From contig NC_067204.1 of the NCBI RefSeq assembly GCF_026262505.1, positions 11,674,522 through 11,738,521 on the forward strand: 64,000 bases of DNA. Direction: 5' to 3'. The notes under the pieces are model-generated. The model saw only the letters and a program-made list of their open reading frames with translations, searched no databases and was not told the DNA's origin. This DNA is from Trichomonas vaginalis G3. Its lineage: Eukaryota; Parabasalia; Trichomonadida; Trichomonadidae. Both the position numbers and the translations under genes were made by a program. Positions 1 through 10,748 of the stretch are shown here, piece after piece (the stretch's first letter is position 1; each line of letters starts with the position of its first letter).

Positions 1-126
1 ACGTTGTTAAACCAATTACTGAAATAAAAATTTTTTCATCTGTTGAAGAATTTAATGACTATTATGCTAATAATAAAAAATTATTTGAAGAATTGACAAC
101 ATGTAAATTGAATAAAATGTTTAAAG
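1..126 (+). pseudogene. Maverick-type hypothetical gene, upstream piece cut by the window edge and an insertion
   Basis: An open frame enters from the left edge (codons from position 3) and runs to position 126, rich in Lys, Asn and Glu. It then meets a mobile element. The same frame resumes at 10021 after a 10-bp direct repeat and runs to a stop at 10195-10197, so the two pieces are halves of one gene split by an insertion. Composition and the neighbouring small genes recall the hypothetical genes of T. vaginalis Maverick/Polinton elements. That assignment is from memory of the families, with no hallmark enzyme (integrase, DNA polymerase B, ATPase, protease) inside the window. No function can be given. 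Confidence 0.6.
117..126. repeat. Left copy of a 10-bp target-site duplication (ATGTTTAAAG)
   Basis: The ten bases ATGTTTAAAG lie immediately before the first base of the left terminal element. An identical copy lies immediately after the right terminal element at 10021-10030. The duplication begins at an in-frame ATG codon of the interrupted gene, and removing the intervening DNA plus one copy restores an open frame. A 9-10 bp duplication is the size generated by Mutator-like transposases. Confidence 0.85.
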
Positions 127-788
127 GGCAAACCCAAATTTTAGCTAAAAGTGACAGGGAAAAAAAACGTTTAGTATTAAAAAAAAGACCGATGAGAGCT
201 TCGTTCGAAATATAGAGGGAACTGAGAATGCGCAACCATTCTCAGGGAATATTGGATGCTATTTCCGTTCCCTCTGTATGGAAAATTGAGGTTTTCAAAG
301 GGAGTTAAAATAATATCAAATTTATACTAATTTACTTCAAAATACAAAAGTATTTGACAGCTAAAATTAGTTACTTTAGCAAGCCTATCAATACCCTTTT
401 ACGATTATTGCTACTTTTTCGAAATAAAATAAATTTATTATCAAAAACCTTTTTTTTCTTAGTAAAAATAAACGAAATTTTTTACCTTATGAACTTTTGA
501 TGGAAATATGCAAATTTAAAATAATAAAGAAAGCCGCGAGCGAAGCGATCGGCTTAGTTCGAAGATTTTGATTCAAATCTTTGCTGATCTGTAATTCGCG
601 GAAGCCGCGAGCGAATCGAGCGGCTTAGGTCTAAGATTTTGATTCAAATCTTTGCTTATATTCCTTAAATTCTTTATGAAACTCGCAACAGTTCCATAAA
701 AAATTTTAAATTCTAAACTGTCGAAATTACCGATCGGTAATCACACCCTTCACGGGTGTGTCACTTTTAGCTAAAATTACCCCTACTC
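127..788. mobile_element. Non-autonomous MITE-like element, copy 1 (662 bp)
   Basis: Nearly identical to 9239-10020, in the same orientation. The ends carry an imperfect terminal inverted repeat: the left end contains AATTTTAGCTAAAAGTGA and the right end its inverse, TCACTTTTAGCTAAAATT. The very terminal bases (GGCAAACCC and CCCCTACTC) do not match well as inverted repeats. Inside are a hairpin-forming segment around 211-290 built on GAGGGAAC...GTTCCCTC, and two approximately 70-bp units near 530-655 containing GAAGCCGCGAGCGAA. There is no convincing protein. Size, inverted ends and a 10-bp duplication suggest a Mutator-like MITE. Confidence 0.75.
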
Positions 789-1373
789 GAGTAAAGTCGT
801 TCAAAAAAATAATTCACTAGTCTCATCACACTTTTCAATGCTCGATTTTTAAAAACCGTTTAAAAATGGAGCTTATATTGAAATAGTGTAGAGACTAAAA
901 ATTACCACAGATAGATCGCTAAGGTAAAATCCTATTAAATATGTTTTTAAGTATATTCTTATTATCTCCCATAGTTTTGATCAATTTCAAAATATTGTGA
1001 GCCTATCTTTTATTTAATGTATTCAAATTGAACTAATTTTATAGAAATAAGTGCATTTCACATCCCATGTCCAATACTCTAAAATTGGTAAAGTAGTGAA
1101 AATTCATAAGTCAATTCATTAGGATAACTAGCCTTTCTTATATTTTACATGATGGTTAGAAATATAATAATATCAGGGAAAAATTCTATTTGGCCAAATT
1201 TATTGAATTCAATTTTTTGAAAAATTCAATGCCTCGCAAATATACGTTTTATTTTTTAAAGCGAACAAAGTTAAAATTTTATCATACTATAATAAGAATT
1301 AATATTTCCTTCCATTTTTTGATCTCAAAATTTTGAATGAGATTTGAAGTTTTTATAGACAGTATTTTTAAAC
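789..1373. other. Intergenic, no gene seen
   Basis: AT-rich DNA between the left terminal element and the adenylyl cyclase start. All frames are short and broken, and no clear TCAYT/A initiator stands close to the ATG at 1374. Confidence 0.6.
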
Positions 1374-4300
1374 ATGGCTGAATCTTCCGTTTCCAAGTCA
1401 GTTTCAGCCACCAGTCAATCGCGGGAGAAATTCTCAGACATAGTAACAGCAAAGGGAAATGTTCTCGACAAAGTTTTCCCTCTTTTCGAACAGATGATTC
1501 AACAAGTTAAACTACCAGCTTGGATTATGGGAATTGTCATGTTCTATCTCCTATGCCAAACACTCTCCATTTGTTTCTGGGTTTATACACCTGTTTATCA
1601 AAAAACAACTCAGCCGTGGACAAATGTTAACAAATATTTTGTCCAAATATTCGCATTTATTGATCCGGTTAATTACAGCACATCAATACAGATATGGATG
1701 ATTGTAGATATCGCAATTGGAGTATTTTCTATACTTTGGATCTTATTCACATTATATCTTAATCATTTGTTTTATACAATTTATGTTCCGGTGCTATACA
1801 TTTCATTTATTCTCATTGATATTGTCGTTCCAATATTGATAGTCCCATCAGCTTACGTAGCGGCGCATGGAATTGTTGGACTTAAAGGTCATTCTGGCAT
1901 AGAATATGTTTTGGAAATAGCTCTTGGATTAGTTGCATTCGCAGTTTACACCTGCGTCTTCTTACTTAGCTCCATTCTTAAGGCAAGATCAGTTGTTTTA
2001 TCTAATTTCCCCTTCCCAATGTTCGAATATGATGCAGTTACAACATGGATCATTATTACAGCAGCTTGTGCCGTACTCTCAGCTATTTTCAACTACTTCG
2101 ATAGCTGGTTTTACACATTAGGTGGTATTATTCACATTTTAATCACAGTTTATGTACAACTTCGTATCTACTATCTTCCTTTCTATGATCTATGGCGCAA
2201 CGTTCTCATGATGGCCTTCTGTTTAGCAACAGTTGTACTTAATATAAATTATTTCGTCATCGCATATGTCGATAAGTTCAAATTCAACTACACAATATTT
2301 GTATTCATAATAATATTGATATTGGGCTATATAGGTGGTACAGGTGCCATTACAAAAGTTTCAGGAGATTTCAGAAAAGCATTAACATACCAAGAAGACG
2401 TAACAAATGTTCCTGAATACTTAGATTCACTCAAGATCAATAAGAACTCACACCAAGCTAACATGTGGATCATTGTTGGTTTAATCTTTAACAGTGATTA
2501 CTTTGTTGATGGTTCTTTAACCGATTACTGCCTTAACTGCCCCAATTTGGATGGAGCTCTTTCAATGTTACTCCAAGTTGTCACATTATTCCCATTCGAG
2601 TCCCGTAAAATGGATGTTCTTTTCAAGAGAGTCATTCAGAAGCATAAACTCGGTTTTAGCGACAGATTCTTGATCTACCAGTGCTTCAGAATCAAGATGA
2701 AGAGATTAGTTTCAGATACAAAAGACACTCTCGAGATGTTCAACAAGCTAAAGAACAAGAATGAAGTTTGCAAGAACACAATCAAAGCATTTTGGGACAA
2801 GAATGAAGCTCATTCAGCATATATCTCAAGTTTGAGCCTTCTTGTTAATGATTTAGATCAATTATTCAAAGCATCATTAATGAGCAATCCAAACAACTTG
2901 AGACTTATTACAGAATACTCCAATTTCTTGGCAGAATGCAAAGGAGACTTCGATAATTCAATCAAGGAAAGTATCAGAGCAGAATTGATTGGTGATGGAA
3001 AGAACTTCAATGTTGATGTTTCCTTTAGATCTTTGGTCAACAAATTCCCAAGATATCTCAAGGACAAAGTCTTAGATGCAAAAGGACACAGAATTCTTAA
3101 ATCAGGAAAAGAAGCTAAAAGTGGAAGCCAGAAATCAAGTTCTAGCGCTAATTCTGGTTCTACAGGTGCAAGTTTCGATTCAAATTCTGTTGACTTTGAA
3201 AGACAAGAAACAGTTTCAAAGAAGATATTGAGAGATGCAAAAGTTAGATTGGCATTCCATCATGGTATTCAAGACACAAGGCCTTGGGAATATAATGCAA
3301 TTATTATGCATATAGTTGCTAGTACAGTTATCATCCTTGTTGCTTATATTGGCTTCTATGCATATGTCAGAATCAACATGAAATGGAGAAGAAAAAGTTA
3401 CAAAGATCTTTCTTATATCGGCTATGCAACATTTTACACAATCTATGCTAATGTTTACACAATGTCAAAGTTCGCTGCTGACTCAAATAGAATGGATCCA
3501 TCAGGAAAAATCCTTGGTAACATTTCTATCGATGATGTTGTTGTAAAAACATTGATTCCATTAGATATCTCACTTCCAATGAAGACATATGTTTGCATGA
3601 ACAGATCTCGTTACTACCTTAGCTTATTGTTAAATAAATTGGCGGATAAGGCTCTTGAAGGCGACGATCCTTATGATATCGCTTACGTATTAATTCAAAC
3701 AAACTCTACATTCAAAGTTTGTGATCAAGCAAGTCCAGATTACGCGATCAGAGCAAGTTTAAAGGCTGAATTAATTGTTTTCAGTTACTTGCATAACTAT
3801 ATTGCTGGTTTGTACAATGAAAACAAAATGCCAGCAAATCTTTATGCATCCAATGATTATTGCCAGATTTTGTCAAATATCCCAACCATTTCAGAAAACG
3901 TCGATATAACATTCCATTCAATTCTTAATTACTATATTGATAAAGCAAATTATTATGATGGTATATTCATTGCTTGGCTTGTATTTGGTTTAGTTGCAAT
4001 GGCAGTTATTTGTGGAATTCCACTTTTCGTCATTGGTTTCTTATACAACAGAAGAATCACAAAGATGTGCCAGATTTTGCATCAATTACCTCCACCTGTC
4101 AAAGAAGATGCCAGAAGGGCATTGATGTTGAATCAAGATCTCAACAGTGAAAACAGTGCAGGAACAACAGAAGTCAAATCAGCATTCTTAGTTGTAATAA
4201 GAATCATTTATTATATTGCTTTAATTGCTTGTTTGATTGTTTATGCTTTGTTTGTTATCACAACAACAAAAATGAACTCCAATCTTACAAAGATTCTCAG

Positions 4301-4592
4301 ATGGTACTTCTATTCATGCCAGAGAATCACAATGGCTTCACAATGCGGTAACAATGCTATTCAGATGATTTTCTTGAATGGATCATTACCACAAACAATT
4401 GTGAACACATCACAGTTAAGAGATAATGAGATTTCAATGCTTGACAAGTTCATGGACTCAGAAAGAACATTATTATATGGTAATGACGAAGTTGAAGGCA
4501 GTGTTGGCTTCGATGAAGAGTTGGATCACTTGCATCTTGAAAGTTACTGCGATTTACTTGCGATTAGGAAGAGAACCAAAGTCAATACATGA
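1374..4592 (+). CDS. Multi-span receptor-type adenylyl cyclase, N-terminal part (frameshifted)
   Basis: This is the membrane part of a large class III nucleotide cyclase whose catalytic half continues in another frame from about 4561. The ATG at 1374 is the first in frame. The 1072-residue product has a cluster of about seven hydrophobic spans in residues 50-330. A soluble stretch with a Ser-rich linker near 590-605 follows, then further spans near 635-660, 865-895 and 945-975. This is the usual layout of the expanded trichomonad cyclase family: many membrane spans, then PAS, then one catalytic domain. The last dozen residues are out of frame: a one-base change near 4555-4565 diverts translation to a stop at 4590. 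Whether this is a true mutation or a sequence error is unknown. The gene lies within the composite block 127-10020. Confidence 0.85.
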   Translation: MAESSVSKSVSATSQSREKFSDIVTAKGNVLDKVFPLFEQMIQQVKLPAWIMGIVMFYLLCQTLSICFWVYTPVYQKTTQPWTNVNKYFVQIFAFIDPVNYSTSIQIWMIVDIAIGVFSILWILFTLYLNHLFYTIYVPVLYISFILIDIVVPILIVPSAYVAAHGIVGLKGHSGIEYVLEIALGLVAFAVYTCVFLLSSILKARSVVLSNFPFPMFEYDAVTTWIIITAACAVLSAIFNYFDSWFYTLGGIIHILITVYVQLRIYYLPFYDLWRNVLMMAFCLATVVLNINYFVIAYVDKFKFNYTIFVFIIILILGYIGGTGAITKVSGDFRKALTYQEDVTNVPEYLDSLKINKNSHQANMWIIVGLIFNSDYFVDGSLTDYCLNCPNLDGALSMLLQVVTLFPFESRKMDVLFKRVIQKHKLGFSDRFLIYQCFRIKMKRLVSDTKDTLEMFNKLKNKNEVCKNTIKAFWDKNEAHSAYISSLSLLVNDLDQLFKASLMSNPNNLRLITEYSNFLAECKGDFDNSIKESIRAELIGDGKNFNVDVSFRSLVNKFPRYLKDKVLDAKGHRILKSGKEAKSGSQKSSSSANSGSTGASFDSNSVDFERQETVSKKILRDAKVRLAFHHGIQDTRPWEYNAIIMHIVASTVIILVAYIGFYAYVRINMKWRRKSYKDLSYIGYATFYTIYANVYTMSKFAADSNRMDPSGKILGNISIDDVVVKTLIPLDISLPMKTYVCMNRSRYYLSLLLNKLADKALEGDDPYDIAYVLIQTNSTFKVCDQASPDYAIRASLKAELIVFSYLHNYIAGLYNENKMPANLYASNDYCQILSNIPTISENVDITFHSILNYYIDKANYYDGIFIAWLVFGLVAMAVICGIPLFVIGFLYNRRITKMCQILHQLPPPVKEDARRALMLNQDLNSENSAGTTEVKSAFLVVIRIIYYIALIACLIVYALFVITTTKMNSNLTKILRWYFYSCQRITMASQCGNNAIQMIFLNGSLPQTIVNTSQLRDNEISMLDKFMDSERTLLYGNDEVEGSVGFDEELDHLHLESYCDLLAIRKRTKVNT

Positions 4593-6096
4593 TATGTATG
4601 CATGTGGTTCTTTGGATGCACAAATTCAGATGCTTAAGTTCTTTGTCGATGAAGTTATTAAGAACTTAAAGTTCTTCCAAGGAAACATGATGAGTGAAGT
4701 TGCTGCAAACTATGCACACATTTTGCGTTTCCACTTCTATCCAAGTGTTATCAGAGCAACAAAGAGAATTTCTCATATAATGAAAACCACATATGATAAC
4801 ACAATGACAAAAAACATCATTTTCCTTGCAGCAGGATTTGTTTGTTTGATTTTTATTTTTGTATTACCATGGTTCTTCAGAAACGTCATGATTCAGAATT
4901 ACCGCATTTTCTTGATGCTCTTGAAACATCTTCCAATGCAAACAATCATTGATACACCAGAAATCCTCGAGTTCTTCACAGGCAAGAAGAAAGCCAAAGT
5001 TGAAAGAATGTCAACATCAAAGTCAATTGTTTATGGTGCAAGTGAATGCATCATTATCACAAACGCTTCAAGTGTTATTGAAATCATCAATAACTCTGTT
5101 ACAGCAAACATCGGTTTAACTCCAGATCAAATGCTTGGTCAGCAATTTGCCAATTTCGTTGGTACTGATGATCAACAGCGTCTCAACCAACAGATTGATA
5201 TGATGACAAGTGGACAAGGATCAGCATTCTGGGAAGACCATCTTACTTTGTTAAATGATAAGAATGATTTCGTTCCATTCACAGTTAACTTGATTGGAAT
5301 GAAAGATGAAGGTTCAAATGAAATTAAGAGCTTCGTTTTCATCTTAAGAAACGAAACAGAAGAGATCCAGAAGAGAAAGGCAGCAGAAGAAGCTAAAGCC
5401 AAATCAGAGAAGTTGTTGTATCAGATCTTACCAAAGGATATCGTTGTAAGACTCAACAGAGGTGAAACAGATATTTCATTCACAATTCCATCAGCAACAA
5501 TCTTCTTCATTGATATTGTCAAATTCTCCAATTATGCTGCAACATTAACACCATCAGAAATCATGGCAAACCTTTCATTGGTGTTCGCAACATTTGATAA
5601 GATTGTTGCCGAATATCCAATCATCACAAAGATCAAATTAATCGGTGATGTTTACATGGCAGCTGCTGGTCTTTTCTGCACAGAAGAAGATGATCCAAAG
5701 AAACATGCAGAAGATGCATGCAGAGCTTGCTTGAGATGCCAGAAGGCCATGGAAGACATCAATGTTAAACTCAGCGCTTCTCTTGAAGTCAGAATTGGTG
5801 TCAACTCTGGTGGTCCACTCATTGGTGGCGTTTTGGGTTCTGATAAGCCAACATTCGATATCATTGGTGATCCAATCAATGTCGCTGCTCGTCTCCAGAG
5901 TACAGATATCCCAGGATGTGTCCAAATTTCTAGTGAAACAAAGGATTTGATCGAAGGTTTGGACTTCATCGTTGAAGAAAGAGGTCAAATTTATCTCAAA
6001 GGCAAAGGTGAAAGACTTACTTACTTCGTTAACTTTGCAACTAAGTCTGACCAAGAAGCCTCATTTGTTATGGCTCTTAATTCTACAACTGAATAA
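4561..6096 (+). CDS. Adenylyl cyclase C-terminal part: membrane span, PAS domain, class III catalytic domain
   Basis: This frame (open from an internal ATG at 4426) directly continues the protein that breaks near 4560. Numbering from 4426, there is a membrane span at 129-151, a PAS-like sensor at about 200-315 and a linker helix rich in Lys/Glu. The class III cyclase domain spans 355-540. Both metal-binding aspartates are present (D363 in FIDIVKF, D408 in IGDVYM). So are K404 and D478, the pair typical of ATP rather than GTP specificity, and the transition-state residues N485 and R489 (INVAAR). Catalysis of ATP to cAMP is therefore expected if the full protein is made. A single catalytic domain implies homodimer function. 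Confidence 0.87.
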   Translation, partial: RLGREPKSIHDMYACGSLDAQIQMLKFFVDEVIKNLKFFQGNMMSEVAANYAHILRFHFYPSVIRATKRISHIMKTTYDNTMTKNIIFLAAGFVCLIFIFVLPWFFRNVMIQNYRIFLMLLKHLPMQTIIDTPEILEFFTGKKKAKVERMSTSKSIVYGASECIIITNASSVIEIINNSVTANIGLTPDQMLGQQFANFVGTDDQQRLNQQIDMMTSGQGSAFWEDHLTLLNDKNDFVPFTVNLIGMKDEGSNEIKSFVFILRNETEEIQKRKAAEEAKAKSEKLLYQILPKDIVVRLNRGETDISFTIPSATIFFIDIVKFSNYAATLTPSEIMANLSLVFATFDKIVAEYPIITKIKLIGDVYMAAAGLFCTEEDDPKKHAEDACRACLRCQKAMEDINVKLSASLEVRIGVNSGGPLIGGVLGSDKPTFDIIGDPINVAARLQSTDIPGCVQISSETKDLIEGLDFIVEERGQIYLKGKGERLTYFVNFATKSDQEASFVMALNSTTE

Positions 6097-6798
6097 TTAT
6101 AATTGTTTTATATTTAAACTTTATTATTCATGCTTTTTGATTAATCATTTTACATTTTTATGACTTGTTATAGAAATATCCTCTTTCCTCTGAGCAAAGA
6201 ATAAGATTAAGTTGTATTTTCATCTGATTTTGAATTATTATGATTGGAGAATCATTGGAATTAATGCCATCATGGAAAAATCTCTATTTGATAAACTATT
6301 TATGAAATGACTAATTATATTTCTGATGATATTTTTCTTGAGATCCTTTTTGCGATCAATTGCAAAATAAATGAAAATGCATTCTATAAAAATGTATTTT
6401 AAGAAAAAGGATATAGACAAATTGTAAAAGAAAAAAGGAATTTTGCATAATCAGATTGGAATTTCTATTTCTTGTCAAGAAAGTATTGTATTAAGCTAAA
6501 ATTTTAATTGATTATATCAATAATAACCTGTATCCAATGAAGCCATATTAGTTATTCTGGTGTTGGGGTTATTTTGTAATGTAAAATTTGACAGTGCAAT
6601 TATTTTGTCAAATTGCTCAATTTGCGGTTATCGCCTTAAAGCGCGTGTTCGTTCTCGACTAGAAAATAGTGCCCATATAGTTAACGAATTTTAACTCCTG
6701 TAATAAAACATTCAATAAACTCTTAAATTCACTGAAAAAATAAATTGAATACTTTTATCGTAATTCCTTAAAAAAATAACTCATTCAAAATCCTTACA
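6097..6798. other. Intergenic, no gene seen
   Basis: AT-rich spacer between the cyclase and lyase genes with no supportable reading frame. A short more GC-rich patch near 6620-6665 has no recognised function. Confidence 0.55.
6781..6786 (+). promoter_or_regulatory. Putative Inr (TCATTC) of the lyase gene
   Basis: TCATTC fits the trichomonad initiator TCA(+1)Y(T/A). Its A lies 16 bases before the ATG at 6799, in the normal range for the very short 5' leaders of these organisms. Confidence 0.5.
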
Positions 6799-7536
6799 AT
6801 GATGTTTTCTTCTTTGTTCATCAGAAAAAACACATATGGCTATGATACCACGAAGATAAGTAAGTATTCAGAGAATCTAAATAGAGGTGTTGTCGCCGTG
6901 CGTGCAGGAAACAAGGCTTTTATTTCATGGAGATTTTTAATTACTGACGATGATGATATTGCTTTTAATGTATATAGAATAGATGAGAATGAAACTATTC
7001 TTAAATTAAACTCAGATCCTATTACAAACGTAACACATTTTTATGACACAAAACATGATAAAACCAAATCTTTCAAATACTTTGTTGGCTCAATAATTAA
7101 TAATATAGAAGTAGAAAACAGTTCATATTTCGAGTTAAAGGCTAATCAGGCAGATCTTCCATGTATTAGAATTCCAATCCGAAATGGAACAAGGTTTAGA
7201 ACTGTGTGGGTAGGTGATTTAGATGGAGATGGAAATCTTGACTTTGTTCTTGCTATAGATGCTGATGAAATTCAAACTGTTGAAGCATATTTACACAATG
7301 GAACTTATCTTTGGACATTAAATCTAGGTCCTAATAGTATTAATAAGTATATGATCGAACCAGGATCAACAACTGTTAATGTTGGCCAAATTGACGGAAT
7401 AAACATTTATGATTTAGATGGTGACGGGAAATCTGAAGTTTATATTCGAATTGCAAACAATTTCACGTTTGGCGATGGATATGTATTCACTCGTGATAAT
7501 GATATAGATCAATGGATTGCTTGTGTCGATGATTGA
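6799..7536 (+). CDS. PL11 family rhamnogalacturonan lyase, N-terminal part (frameshifted)
   Basis: First segment of a family 11 polysaccharide lyase, which cleaves the rhamnogalacturonan-I backbone of pectin by beta-elimination. The product shows the family's N-terminal beta-sandwich (NRGVVAVRAG, ISWRFL, FNVYR). It then has calcium-binding beta-propeller loops: GDLDGDGNLDFVLAID near residue 140 and YDLDGDGKSEVYIR near 208. The start is the ATG doublet at 6799/6802, behind an initiator-like TCATTC. No clear signal peptide is visible, which is odd for a membrane-anchored enzyme and may mean the N-terminus is also damaged. The frame breaks at about 7530, where GATTGACAGG appears to lack one G, and continues in another frame to 8869. 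Confidence 0.82.
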   Translation: MMFSSLFIRKNTYGYDTTKISKYSENLNRGVVAVRAGNKAFISWRFLITDDDDIAFNVYRIDENETILKLNSDPITNVTHFYDTKHDKTKSFKYFVGSIINNIEVENSSYFELKANQADLPCIRIPIRNGTRFRTVWVGDLDGDGNLDFVLAIDADEIQTVEAYLHNGTYLWTLNLGPNSINKYMIEPGSTTVNVGQIDGINIYDLDGDGKSEVYIRIANNFTFGDGYVFTRDNDIDQWIACVDD

Positions 7537-8869
7537 CAGGTAAAATTACAAAAAGCAAAACTTCCGAACTTTTTCCCACAATATGTCCAATGGGTACTTT
7601 GTTTGGTGTTGGTTGGCTGTCCCTTGAGAAACCATCTTTAATAGTTGTATTCAAAAACAGAGATGATAAAAAGAGATTTTACAACTATGTTGCAGCTTTC
7701 TCATTCACAAACAACATGTTTAAGATGGATTGGAACTGGACAGATTCATATCAACCTGATATTAACTATCCTGAAGGTCATCACTTTAGAATTGCTGATG
7801 TTGATTTTGATGGAATTGACGAAATCCATGAAATCGGTTATGTTCTAAATGGAAATGGAACAATCAGATTTAATCTTGGAACGCAAAGAATTATTCATGG
7901 TGATAGATTCTATGTTGCAAAGTTTAATAATGAAGATACAACAATGAGCGGATATGGTATACAACAAAATAATCCTGACTTAATTGATGAGTATTTCTAT
8001 AATGCTTCTACTGGAGAAATGAAATGGATTCATTATGGAACAACAGTTCATGATGTTGGAAGAAGAAATGCTGGTGATTTCGATCCAACTGTTCCAGGAT
8101 TAGAAGTCTTTTCATTCCAAGGAATGTACAATGCAAAAACGAATACAAAACTTGCTGACAATTTTACAAATACATTTTGGCCAAGTAATAATGTATATTG
8201 GGATGGAACATTAAATCCTGCTTGTTATGATAGAGGACATCTTAATAAATGGAATTACAAAACTAAAAGAGGAGATCGTTTATTCACAGCTAATTACGAT
8301 TTCAATAAATATTATGGACAATTTCCTGCTGAAGATGAAGGTGGTCATTATCCGCTGTTTCATGGAGATATACTTGGAGATTGGAGAGAAGAGTTCATCA
8401 TGGCAGCTTCCAATTTTAGCGAGATCGTTATATTTACAACAAATTTAGACACTGATATCAAAATGACGACATTATGGCATGACCCTGGAATGAGAGCATC
8501 AATGACATTGAATGGATATAAACAAAGCCATATGCCATTGGAATATATCGGAGCAGAATCAAATTTGACTGAAAATAGAAGGCATCTCAAAGAATATCAT
8601 AAATTAAGGGCAGAAAAATACCTGCTCAAATACCTTCACCAACAATTGAATACTCAAGCAGCTCTTCATCAACAATTACAAACAACGTAACTCAAAGTCC
8701 TTCTGATAAGAGTGATTCAAATAATACATCGAAGAAAACTGCTGCAATTGTAGTTCCTTTAGTTATTGTGATTGCATTGATTGCTATTGCTGCATTCTTC
8801 GTATGGAGAGTTTATAAAATTAGAAAGCAAAATAGGGATGATATAGTTGAATCAACATTAATTGTATAA
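7533..8869 (+). CDS. PL11 rhamnogalacturonan lyase, C-terminal part with membrane anchor (second frameshift near 8616)
   Basis: Continues the lyase with further family signatures: IADVDFDGIDEI, RNAGDFDPTVPGLEVFS, LGDWREEF and LWHDPGMRASM, the strongest family markers in the window. A second one-base loss near 8616, in a run of A, diverts the frame to a stop at 8690. In the corrected frame the sequence continues through a Ser/Thr/Asn-rich linker, a membrane span of about 23 residues (AAIVVPLVIVIALIAIA...) and a short basic tail, ending at TAA 8867-8869. The enzyme would thus face outward, tethered to the surface or a vesicle membrane. PL11 is chiefly bacterial, so lateral acquisition is likely (inference). 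Two frame breaks make it a pseudogene unless the sequence is in error. Confidence 0.82.
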
Positions 8870-9238
8870 TTTTATATTTTGTTTTAAATATATATTATTT
8901 TCGATTTCAAATGTTTTATATTGTTTAAAGCATATTGGATTTTCTCTGTGGAGGCGCGTAATTGCTTTTATGAATGAATGATTTCAAAAATTATTTAATT
9001 TTTTTTTTGACTAGCTCCTGAATTGGGATCATAAAATCACAATTTTATATTGAAATGCTTGAATATTTAGTGCTCGTATATCATTCATATGTCAAACGTT
9101 TAAAATTGATTGTTAATGAAGGATACTGAAGCTATTTATAATTCAAAATATGAGTTTCATGAGTAGTGTTATTAATGATCTTATATGAAGACAGCATCTG
9201 GTAAACAAATTTTGGAATATTTTAGTTTGAATTTTGAC
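8870..9238. other. Intergenic, no gene seen
   Basis: AT-rich 3' flank of the lyase gene up to the second terminal element. Nothing recognisable. Confidence 0.55.
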
Positions 9239-10020
9239 GGCAAACCCAAATTTTAGCTAAAAGTGACAGGGGGAAAAAACGTTTAGTATTAAAAAAAAGA
9301 CCGATGAGAGCTTCGTTCGAAATATAGAGGGAACTGAGAATGCGCAACCATTCTCAGGGAATATTGGATGCTATTCCCGTTCCCTCTGTATGGAAAATTG
9401 AGGTTTTCAAAGGGAGTTAAAATAATATCAAATTTATACTAATTTACTTCAAAATACAAAAGTATTTGACAGCTAAAATTAGTTACTTTAGCAAGCCTAT
9501 CAATACCCTTTTACGATTATTGTTACTTTTTCGAAATAAAAGTAAAAACAAATTTATACTAATTTACTTCAAAATACAAAAGTATTTGACAGCTAAAATT
9601 AGTTACTTTAGCAAGCCTATCAATACCCTTTTACGATTATTGCTACTTTTTCGAAATAAAATAAATTTATTATCAAAAACCTTTTTTTTCTTAGTAAAAA
9701 TAAACGAAATTTTTTACCTTATGAACTTTTGATGGAAATATGCAAATTTAAAATAATAAAGAAAGCCGCGAGCGAAGCGATCGGCTTAGTTCGAAGATTT
9801 TGATTCAAATCTTTGCTGATCTGTAATTCGCGGAAGCCGCGAGCGAATCGAGCGGCTTAGGTCTAAGATTTTGATTCAAATCTTTGCTTATATTCCTTAA
9901 ATTCTTTATGAAACTCGCAACAGTTCCATAAAAAATTTTAAATTCTAAACTGTCGAAATTACCGATCGGTAATCACACCCTTCACGGGTGTGTCATTTTT
10001 AGCTAAAATTACCCCTACTC
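9239..10020. mobile_element. Non-autonomous MITE-like element, copy 2 (782 bp)
   Basis: Matches copy 1 (127-788) almost base for base, differing by a few substitutions plus one internal tandem duplication of about 120 bp. The segment containing TTTGACAGCTAAAATTAG occurs near 9465 and again near 9585, which accounts for the whole length difference. Inverted ends (AAAAGTGACA near the left, TGTCATTTTTAGC near the right) and the GAAGCCGCGAGCG internal repeats are as in copy 1. Near identity implies recent spread or homogenisation between the two copies. An 88-codon open frame at 9466-9732 simply reads through the tandem duplication and is not regarded as a gene. Confidence 0.78.
9993..10000 (+). 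promoter_or_regulatory. Inr-like TCATTTTT inside the right terminal repeat, facing outward
   Basis: The right inverted repeat of copy 2 holds TCATTTTT. Its A at 9995 lies 26 bases before the ATG at 10021, which opens the downstream half of the interrupted gene. Copy 1 has TCACTTTT at the equivalent place (761-768), and the left ends carry the mirror motif. The element could therefore supply a start site to adjacent DNA. This is inferred from motif and spacing only. Confidence 0.4.
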
Positions 10021-10197
10021 ATGTTTAAAGTTGATGGATTCAAAATTTCAAAAATAAAAGGAGTGGTTAGTTTGAAATCTATTCCTCAATCAAGAATCAC
10101 CTCATTAATGAAAATTGATGATTTAACAAAAAGAATAGAAGAGATTGAAGAAAGAATGAATCAAATAATTGATTTCATAAATTCAAATAATCATTAG
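10021..10197 (+). CDS. Small 58-residue ORF: downstream half of the interrupted Maverick-type gene
   Basis: ATG at 10021 to TAG at 10195-10197. The first ten bases are the right copy of the target duplication, and the ATG is the same codon that occurs at 117-119 in the upstream half. The C-terminal half is a short amphipathic helix rich in Ile/Glu/Met (DDLTKRIEEIEERMNQ), likely a coiled coil. Joined to 1-126 it would be the C-terminus of a longer protein. On its own it could be expressed from the Inr-like motif in the adjacent element. The stop is 4 bases before the convergent stop of the next gene. No function known. Confidence 0.55.
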   Translation: MFKVDGFKISKIKGVVSLKSIPQSRITSLMKIDDLTKRIEEIEERMNQIIDFINSNNH

Positions 10198-10201
10198 TTT
10201 C

Positions 10202-10684
10202 TTAAAGTTCTATGTTGAACTCATCAAATTCTTCTTCTTCATCATTACCATTACCATTACTTTTAGCGAGTTTATTTACTCTTTCAACTTTATCTTTTGA
10301 TAGTCTATCGTTTAATTTTTTCTGAAGTTTTTCGTTACCAAGTTCTAAAATTTTACATGGATGATATTTAAACCCGTTAAATTCTTTTTCCTCAGTTTTA
10401 ATCATTAATCTACAAAGAACTTTAGTGAGGTGGTTTTGTTGTTTAAACCATTTATCCTTAATATTTGTTATAAATTCAATATCCGGAATTAATTCCCAAA
10501 TTTTTGAATTTTCGATTAATTTACCATCAAATGCAAAAGCAATAGGTTTAATATTAAACTTACCTTTATAAAATAAACTTTGTACGCAATCATCAAAATA
10601 AACGTCTACTTGTTTAACCTGGGTGAGAATTGGTGAAAGTTTATCCATTAATTGATTCACAGTCACGAATTTTGATTCACTCAT
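10202..10684 (-). CDS. Maverick-type hypothetical protein, 160 aa
   Basis: Complete frame with ATG at 10684, 160 residues. It has no membrane span or recognised domain. It begins with a predicted helical stretch (VNQLMDKLSPILTQVKQ), has a Trp/Phe-containing core, and ends in an Asn-Gly run and an acidic tail (DEEEEFDEF). It lies tail-to-tail with the 58-residue ORF and in the same direction as the next gene, 65 bp apart. That compact, gene-dense arrangement is what one sees inside Polinton/Maverick elements. I do not recognise the family. The element assignment rests on context. Confidence 0.6.
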   Translation of the reverse strand: MSESKFVTVNQLMDKLSPILTQVKQVDVYFDDCVQSLFYKGKFNIKPIAFAFDGKLIENSKIWELIPDIEFITNIKDKWFKQQNHLTKVLCRLMIKTEEKEFNGFKYHPCKILELGNEKLQKKLNDRLSKDKVERVNKLAKSNGNGNDEEEEFDEFNIEL

Positions 10685-10748
10685 TTCTTACGAATTAAAA
10701 AAATAAATTATTCAAAAATGTAAGACATGAATTTTTAAAGTTTATTTT

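Follow-up and report, generated by a model that had tools for sequence, protein, structure and literature searches.

Two host genes on contig C2 of the Trichomonas vaginalis genome lie between two short transposable elements, and the whole arrangement appears to have entered a Maverick-like repeat as one unit. The window analyzed here is a 64,000-nucleotide stretch of that contig (C2:11674522-11738521), and the genome searched comprises 180.9 Mb in 86 contigs. The left element, c1 (window positions 127-788, plus strand, 662 bp), and the right element, c2 (9239-10020, plus strand, 782 bp), run in the same direction and enclose 8,450 bp, here called the block (789-9238, plus strand). The best explanation, and in our judgment the probable one, is a composite insertion (macrotransposon) in which a MULE transposase joined the outer element ends to a new target, since an outer-only 10-bp duplication, exact element ends and an empty target site fit such an event directly. 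The first-pass annotation proposed that the block had inserted as one unit. Good support for this comes from the empty sites, from the 10-mer found only at the outer borders and from a second copy of the block.

The two elements are near-identical and are framed by a perfect repeat at their outer borders. Alignment of 127-788 with 9239-10020 over the whole length agrees with the earlier description of two directly repeated elements: c2 contains two 120-bp tandem units, and c1 and c2 are set apart by one such internal unit and a few substitutions. Each starts with GGCAAACCC and ends with CCCCTACTC, and an inverted 20-bp core, AATTTTAGCTAAAAGTGACA, lies near both ends, forming part of the left terminal repeat of c1 (127-156, plus strand) and deviating by one base in the right copy of c2. 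No ATG-started open reading frame of at least 120 amino acids is present in c1 or c2. The perfect 10-bp repeat ATGTTTAAAG occupies positions 117-126 and 10021-10030, representing the left and right copies of a target site duplication, and occurs nowhere else in the window, as the first-pass annotation had claimed. Its further observation that the inner flanks share no duplication also holds: the two flanks of c1 share no more than 6 of 8 bases, and the left flank of c2 (9229-9238, plus strand) reads GAATTTTGAC. Element ends are exact at all four borders of the composite. The arrangement departs from a bacterial-type composite transposon in that the end elements encode no transposase of their own. 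Pack-MULEs carry host sequence as cargo inside one element; the present structure resembles them in combining host sequence with MULE ends and differs in that two complete elements, rather than one pair of terminal repeats, bracket the cargo. A model in which the block and c2 moved alone from a terminal-repeat-like GAGTA at 789 was also discarded because the 10 bp preceding 789 belong to the end of c1 and differ from the right flank.

The elements belong to a large family whose usual target site duplication is 10 bp long. Scanning the genome for the left end with at most one mismatch yields 458 places (224 forward and 234 reverse), 100 of which were listed with positions. Flanks were compared in a non-random sample consisting of the best c1 matches, some close pairs and part of the exact-match list for contig C1; after removal of rows with identical flanks and length, it contains 57 complete copies, together with 18 left ends lacking a recognized right end. 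Flush exact duplications are found in 30 of the 57 (20 of 10 bp, eight of 9 bp and two of 8 bp, with two of the 30 counted after a one-base shift), so that 28 carry duplications of 9-10 bp. These duplications fix the element borders and identify 10 bp as the usual length. The remaining 27 complete copies have no flush matching flanks, though their bodies are nearly identical; these rows include c1, c2, the element at the second copy of the block (with a repeat displaced by 6 bp), one copy matching in 8 of 10 positions and one locus counted twice because of an inverted duplication. The similarity between c1 and c2 is no greater than that of either to other family copies, and the use of body variants as a test of transposition versus recombination was abandoned because the family is too uniform.

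Within this sample, the outer flanks of c1 and c2 form a unique match. Among 4,215 comparisons of flush left and right 10-mers between element-family loci, agreement in all 10 positions occurs once, between the left flank of c1 and the right flank of c2, while 9 of 10 is never reached and 8 of 10 is seen seven times. Widening the match to 8-11 bp with a one-base shift adds two cases, both of low complexity, and the best result in 4,371 comparisons for inverted pairs is 8 of 10. Six further close pairs (at C6:15.36 Mb, C2:5.81 Mb, C1:7.90 Mb, C2:2.79 Mb, C2:7.95 Mb and C2:2.125 Mb) have no matching outer flanks in direct or inverted comparison, though some of their right ends were not recognized. 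The outer flanks also fail to match for an element 21 kb from the one at the second copy of the block, which was considered as a composite partner. The first-pass annotation had looked toward other loci with element pairs and outer-only duplications; a second composite, direct or inverted, is absent among the sampled copies, which represent part of the family.

The insertion site is found empty in other copies of the surrounding repeat. The left flank (1-116) belongs to a multicopy, Maverick/Polinton-like repeat. Window positions 1-126 have at least 41 matches, all 100% identical and 40 of them extending across 1-126 (40 of 957 candidates scored), and positions 10021-10700 have at least 41 matches at 97-100% identity (40 of 1,046 candidates scored). 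The right flank (10031-10700) is part of the same repeat and contains a DUF4108 open reading frame (10202-10684, minus strand). An upstream open reading frame in a repeat copy (L024:4819-5646) resembles the Pox_A32 packaging ATPase (E = 6.6e-5; 22.9 bits, just above the cut-off at 22.8), and four more upstream open reading frames gave no firm domain match. Overall, the flanking high-copy repeat fits a Maverick/Polinton. In three of three other host-repeat copies (L026, L027 and L028) the site is empty and holds a single 10-mer, by which the sequences matching 1-126 and 10021-10400 overlap exactly. A fourth copy shows the same overlap at C2:6062421-6062430 as judged from coordinates. In a fifth, diverged copy near the second copy of the block, 1-126 is matched at 99% and 10034-10402 follows 30 bp on at 81%; no element is present at the site in this copy, whose right flank is alignable only from 10034. 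The empty sites with one 10-mer indicate that the Maverick copy in the window took one insertion between its two 10-mers. Both the predicted empty site joining 1-126 to the right flank and the claim that the outer flanks form one open reading frame once the block is removed are thereby borne out, the latter by a 110-amino-acid frame spanning the empty site in a natural repeat copy (L027, 2030-2362, minus strand). Close spacing of two elements is in itself unremarkable, since by our own arithmetic chance alone should place about 10 pairs of elements within 10 kb of each other among 458 left ends. If the block merely lay between two unrelated solo insertions, however, each would own a duplication, and neither does, while the outer flanks match in 10 of 10 positions; this explanation is also contradicted by the empty sites, and we regard it as ruled out for practical purposes.

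The block carries an adenylyl cyclase gene and a rhamnogalacturonan lyase gene. The 5' part of the cyclase gene is a 1,072-amino-acid open reading frame (1374-4592, plus strand), and its 3' part (4426-6096, plus strand) encodes PAS and cyclase catalytic domains (PF00211, E = 2.2e-39; PF13426, E = 4.2e-16). The second gene, with a 5' part at 6799-7536 (plus strand; PF18370, E = 3.4e-19) and a 3' part at 7590-8690 (plus strand; PF21348, E = 2.4e-37), encodes a rhamnogalacturonan lyase by these domains and not the pectin lyase that had been named, while the adenylyl cyclase assignment stands. Both genes are frame-broken in the window, possibly because of assembly indels. Upstream of the first frame-breaking indel, the cyclase sequence shows 25 non-synonymous and 6 synonymous substitutions and no stop, giving no sign of purifying selection. 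Separately, among nine paralogue loci of the lyase and cyclase (L011 and L013-L020), three lie no more than 1.5 kb from a family left end; two of these are copies of one duplication and one holds a 55-bp fragment only. These loci are too few for use in linking the paralogues to the elements.

A second copy of the block, anticipated by the first-pass annotation, lies 2.07 Mb from the window copy on contig C2, in the opposite orientation (C2:9601323-9609873, minus strand). It differs from the window copy by 41 mismatches in 8,437 aligned positions and is the only near-identical copy found, the next match having 76% identity. Both cargo genes are open at this locus, encoding single proteins of 1,606 and 591 amino acids. 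The first 10 bp of the block (789-798, plus strand) lie there in native sequence, with no element at base 789. About 475-500 bp of native sequence extend to the left before a high-copy repeat begins, and this stretch has no other match among 40 of 1,024 candidates scored, a result dominated by the neighboring repeat. Its reading as an interrupted gene was dropped, the 46-amino-acid frame at this edge having no Pfam match and no relative in the genome. At the right edge, an element of the same family starts at exactly the base where c2 starts. The 9 bp preceding it, AATTTTGAC, recur 6 bp past its right end, so that the element looks inserted at that place, and a 16-mer across this right end occurs once in the genome. 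Retention of this copy indicates that the block was duplicated, with its right edge at an element in the source. The simplest reading is that the C2:9.60 Mb locus is the source and the window copy is derived from it. The source-site element and c2 differ in four structural modules (the tandem units, the middle, the internal repeat and the right part), and c2 is thus not its plain descendant.

Divergence between the two block copies is unevenly distributed. Of the 41 mismatches, 39 are located in 789-4549 and two in the other 4.7 kb. Indels follow a different pattern, with one of 108 bp in the first half and one of 10 bp plus seven of 1-2 bp in the second, where small indels outnumber mismatches. 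To account for this unevenness, either the two loci must later have exchanged sequence on the c2 side, or the assembly must be unpolished there. An inverted duplication elsewhere in the assembly contains 9 mismatches and 29 gap openings across 6.1 kb, and given this indel-rich example the broken frames of the window copy are not taken as proven. Such indel excess, seen in both the block's second half and the inverted duplication, points to unpolished stretches and would be in line with a misassembly, by which a real solo element in the Maverick and an element-flanked block elsewhere were misjoined through their shared 0.7-kb repeat. That repeat is short for long reads, assuming that the 86-contig assembly is a long-read one, and two elements with exact family ends, bordered by a matching outer 10-mer where other repeat copies are empty, are not what a misjoin is expected to yield. 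The c1/789 junction is moreover found nowhere else in the assembly (a 15-mer across 788/789 occurs once in the genome), and a real source would still be required. We consider a misassembly improbable.

Ectopic homologous recombination, the second route suggested in the first-pass annotation, is the main alternative, although we think it unlikely. A source copy, or a circle of block and element, would have recombined into a resident solo element that already had the 10-bp duplications on both sides in the Maverick, leaving two hybrid elements. The unlikeness of the c2 body to the source-site element would be expected if c2 derives mostly from the resident, and c2 is next to the half of the block that has almost no mismatches. 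The many family copies with near-identical bodies and no flush flanks suggest in addition that exchange at elements may be common. Recombination, however, requires an extra earlier solo insertion together with a source carrying an element at 789, or it leaves the exact c1/789 junction unexplained; an element is missing from 789 at the second locus, and apart from c1 and c2 no copy in the sample has a flush 10-bp flank partner.

The case for a composite insertion combines the structure of the window with that of the source. Two transposon ends bracket a duplicated chromosomal segment, the duplication is confined to the outside at an otherwise empty site and has the length typical of the family, and a transposase-coding MULE family shares the left end. 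The junction of c1 with the block is unique, and the second copy gives way to native sequence at 789 and to an element at 9238. On the other side stand the missing element at 789 of the second locus, the different body of its right-hand element, the lack of a particularly close relationship between c1 and c2, the single occurrence of a composite in the sample, and the divergence of the block halves, for which an extra later exchange or uneven assembly is required. The c1/789 junction fits end joining, and the difference between the bodies of c2 and the source-site element can be explained by gene conversion or by recombination into a resident element.

A MULE family with the same left end provides a candidate source of transposase. 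Some family copies share the left ca. 346 bp and continue into a longer common interior with a MULE open reading frame. The coding frame is at least 455 amino acids long and matches PF10551 (MULE; E = 2.6e-7; 31.4 bits, with the cut-off at 27.6); the 2.9 kb of the coding element that were examined do not extend to its right end. A 283-amino-acid part of the transposase has at least 137 matches (137 of 830 candidates scored). The first 33 loci among the matches listed show a rounded 100% identity over the query, which suggests a recent spread of the family, and the tail of the matches represents a distant family at 32-40%. On contigs C1 and C2 there are 32 transposase hits, five of which fall outside the range of the 100 listed left ends. 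For 16 of the 27 in-range hits, corresponding to 13 loci (three seen in two pieces), a left end lies 378-1164 bp away in the expected orientation, compared to a mean of 0.085 such pairings under 200 position shifts. The left end adjoins 16 of 20 close hits (63-100%) versus none of seven distant ones (33-35%). Judged by sequence, c1 and c2 are most likely short non-autonomous derivatives of this family. Another high-copy MULE near some copies (L093, also in L034) lacks the termini of the element and was set aside as a partner because the transposase is found beside the shared left end.

In the proposed composite insertion, a transposase recognizing only ends would bring together the left end of c1 and the right end of c2, two ends of separate elements, and would have to be supplied in trans, since c1 and c2 have no open reading frame of their own. 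The paired outer ends would then join one 10-bp target in the resident Maverick-like repeat, bringing in 8.45 kb of contig C2 with both genes. We infer the acting enzyme, the source locus and the origin of the c1/block junction, for which two routes may be considered. In the first, c1 would have inserted earlier at base 789 in a source haplotype outside this genome, an event that would leave GAGTAAAGTC on both sides of an element at base 789 of the C2:9.60 Mb locus. In the second, as in maize, the free end of an excised element would be joined to the broken source flank; this route works without a left element at the source and leaves the source copy in place, as observed. Extending the replication-linked maize route to MULE elements is an argument by analogy. 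It is conceivable, if rather doubtful, that in this parasite host genes are regularly duplicated and moved by pairs of short MULE elements, whether through macrotransposition or through composite insertion at replication, in which case many of the copies with mismatched flanks could be remains of other such events.

Bacteria offer the classic examples of composite units with a transposon at either end; in eukaryotes, to our knowledge, such units have seldom been documented. The Ac/Ds elements of maize are hAT elements. Both Ac/fAc composite insertions and Ac macrotransposons are reported from maize, with element ends inserting during replication, flanking DNA being recopied and the breaks being joined (PMC4270019, PMC9910405). 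As described there, the maize cases resemble the present one in that termini flank a segmental duplication with an outer target site duplication, the source can stay and the target is on the same chromosome (up to 1.7 Mb from p1 in maize); they differ in having 8-bp duplications, in coming from a plant and in their discovery in genetic screens (PMC4270019, PMC9910405). MULE-type ends, a 10-bp duplication, a single-celled organism and the lack of a flank on the c1 side distinguish the T. vaginalis unit. In Acinetobacter, a MITE-flanked blaPER-1 unit likewise has two same-direction short elements without open reading frames and an outer direct repeat, and its author, in the sections available, left transposition versus homologous recombination undecided (PMC3934969). 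It resides on a bacterial plasmid, with a 5-bp repeat and identical 439-bp elements, and the comparison given in those sections includes no source copy, in contrast to the one made here (PMC3934969). The Ising transposing element of Drosophila, as far as the excerpt describes it, similarly moves chromosomal segments between two DNA transposons, these being foldback elements and the segments hundreds of kb long (PMC6431247). MULE transposons are known from T. vaginalis itself as TvMULE families; two listed TvMULE2 duplications are 10 bp, and the terms MITE and composite are absent from the main text of that report (PMC2725143). The assertion of an undescribed mechanism is therefore too strong in general in view of the maize, Drosophila and Acinetobacter cases, at least as these sources present them (PMC4270019, PMC9910405, PMC6431247, PMC3934969). 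A composite unit in Trichomonas or with MULE ends was not reported in the literature searched, which consisted mostly of papers other than subscription articles and preprints. The kind of event is known from these three systems; what sets the T. vaginalis case apart is its element type, its host and the survival of a second copy together with the empty site.

One genome thus keeps the composite unit, a second copy of its cargo, the empty site and a near-identical transposase family. If confirmed, composite insertion would represent a concrete route for copying whole host genes to new places, Maverick-like elements included, in a protist whose gene families are very large, and would be extended from maize Ac/Ds to MULEs.

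The two copies of the block carrying the adenylyl cyclase and rhamnogalacturonan lyase genes differ unevenly along their length. Comparison of positions 789-9238 of the window with the second copy (C2:9601323-9609873, minus strand) places 39 of the 41 mismatches within the first 3.8 kb, which points either to sequence exchange between the two loci at a later time or to uneven polishing. To the left of the second copy lies a repeat of about 530 bp (C2:9610370-9610900) that is inverted in arrangement and has at least 40 further copies at 98-100% identity. On contig C5, a paralogue of the lyase gene and a truncated element of the short MULE-derived family are duplicated together at 99% between L014 (28.22 Mb) and L015 (34.17 Mb). 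The next open reading frame at L014 encodes a putative GP63-type metallopeptidase of 776 amino acids.

Family elements contain an internal tandem unit of 120 bp, present in one to at least nine copies and differing in number among elements (e.g. L077). Distances from the left element end to the MULE transposase match likewise vary in steps of about 120 bp.

An inverted duplication with arms of approximately 6.1 kb is found at C6:15358000-15371000 (L029 and L030), each arm containing one family copy without a target duplication. Alignment of the arms gives 29 gap openings against 9 mismatches. The family copies at L008 and L042, located on separate contigs, have a left flank in common for 15 bp that diverges beyond this point, while their right flanks are unlike.

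Flank comparison across the sampled family, a non-random set of 57 complete near-identical copies, identified 27 without flush matching flanks. This count takes in both copies bracketing the block (127-788 and 9239-10020) and the source-site element at the right edge of the second block copy; loci include L008, L031, L042, L046, L052, L053, L057, L059, L064, L066, L070, L072, L074, L075, L078, L079, L083, L087 and L088. The proportion of copies lacking such flanks suggests that exchange or rearrangement is frequent at elements of this family.
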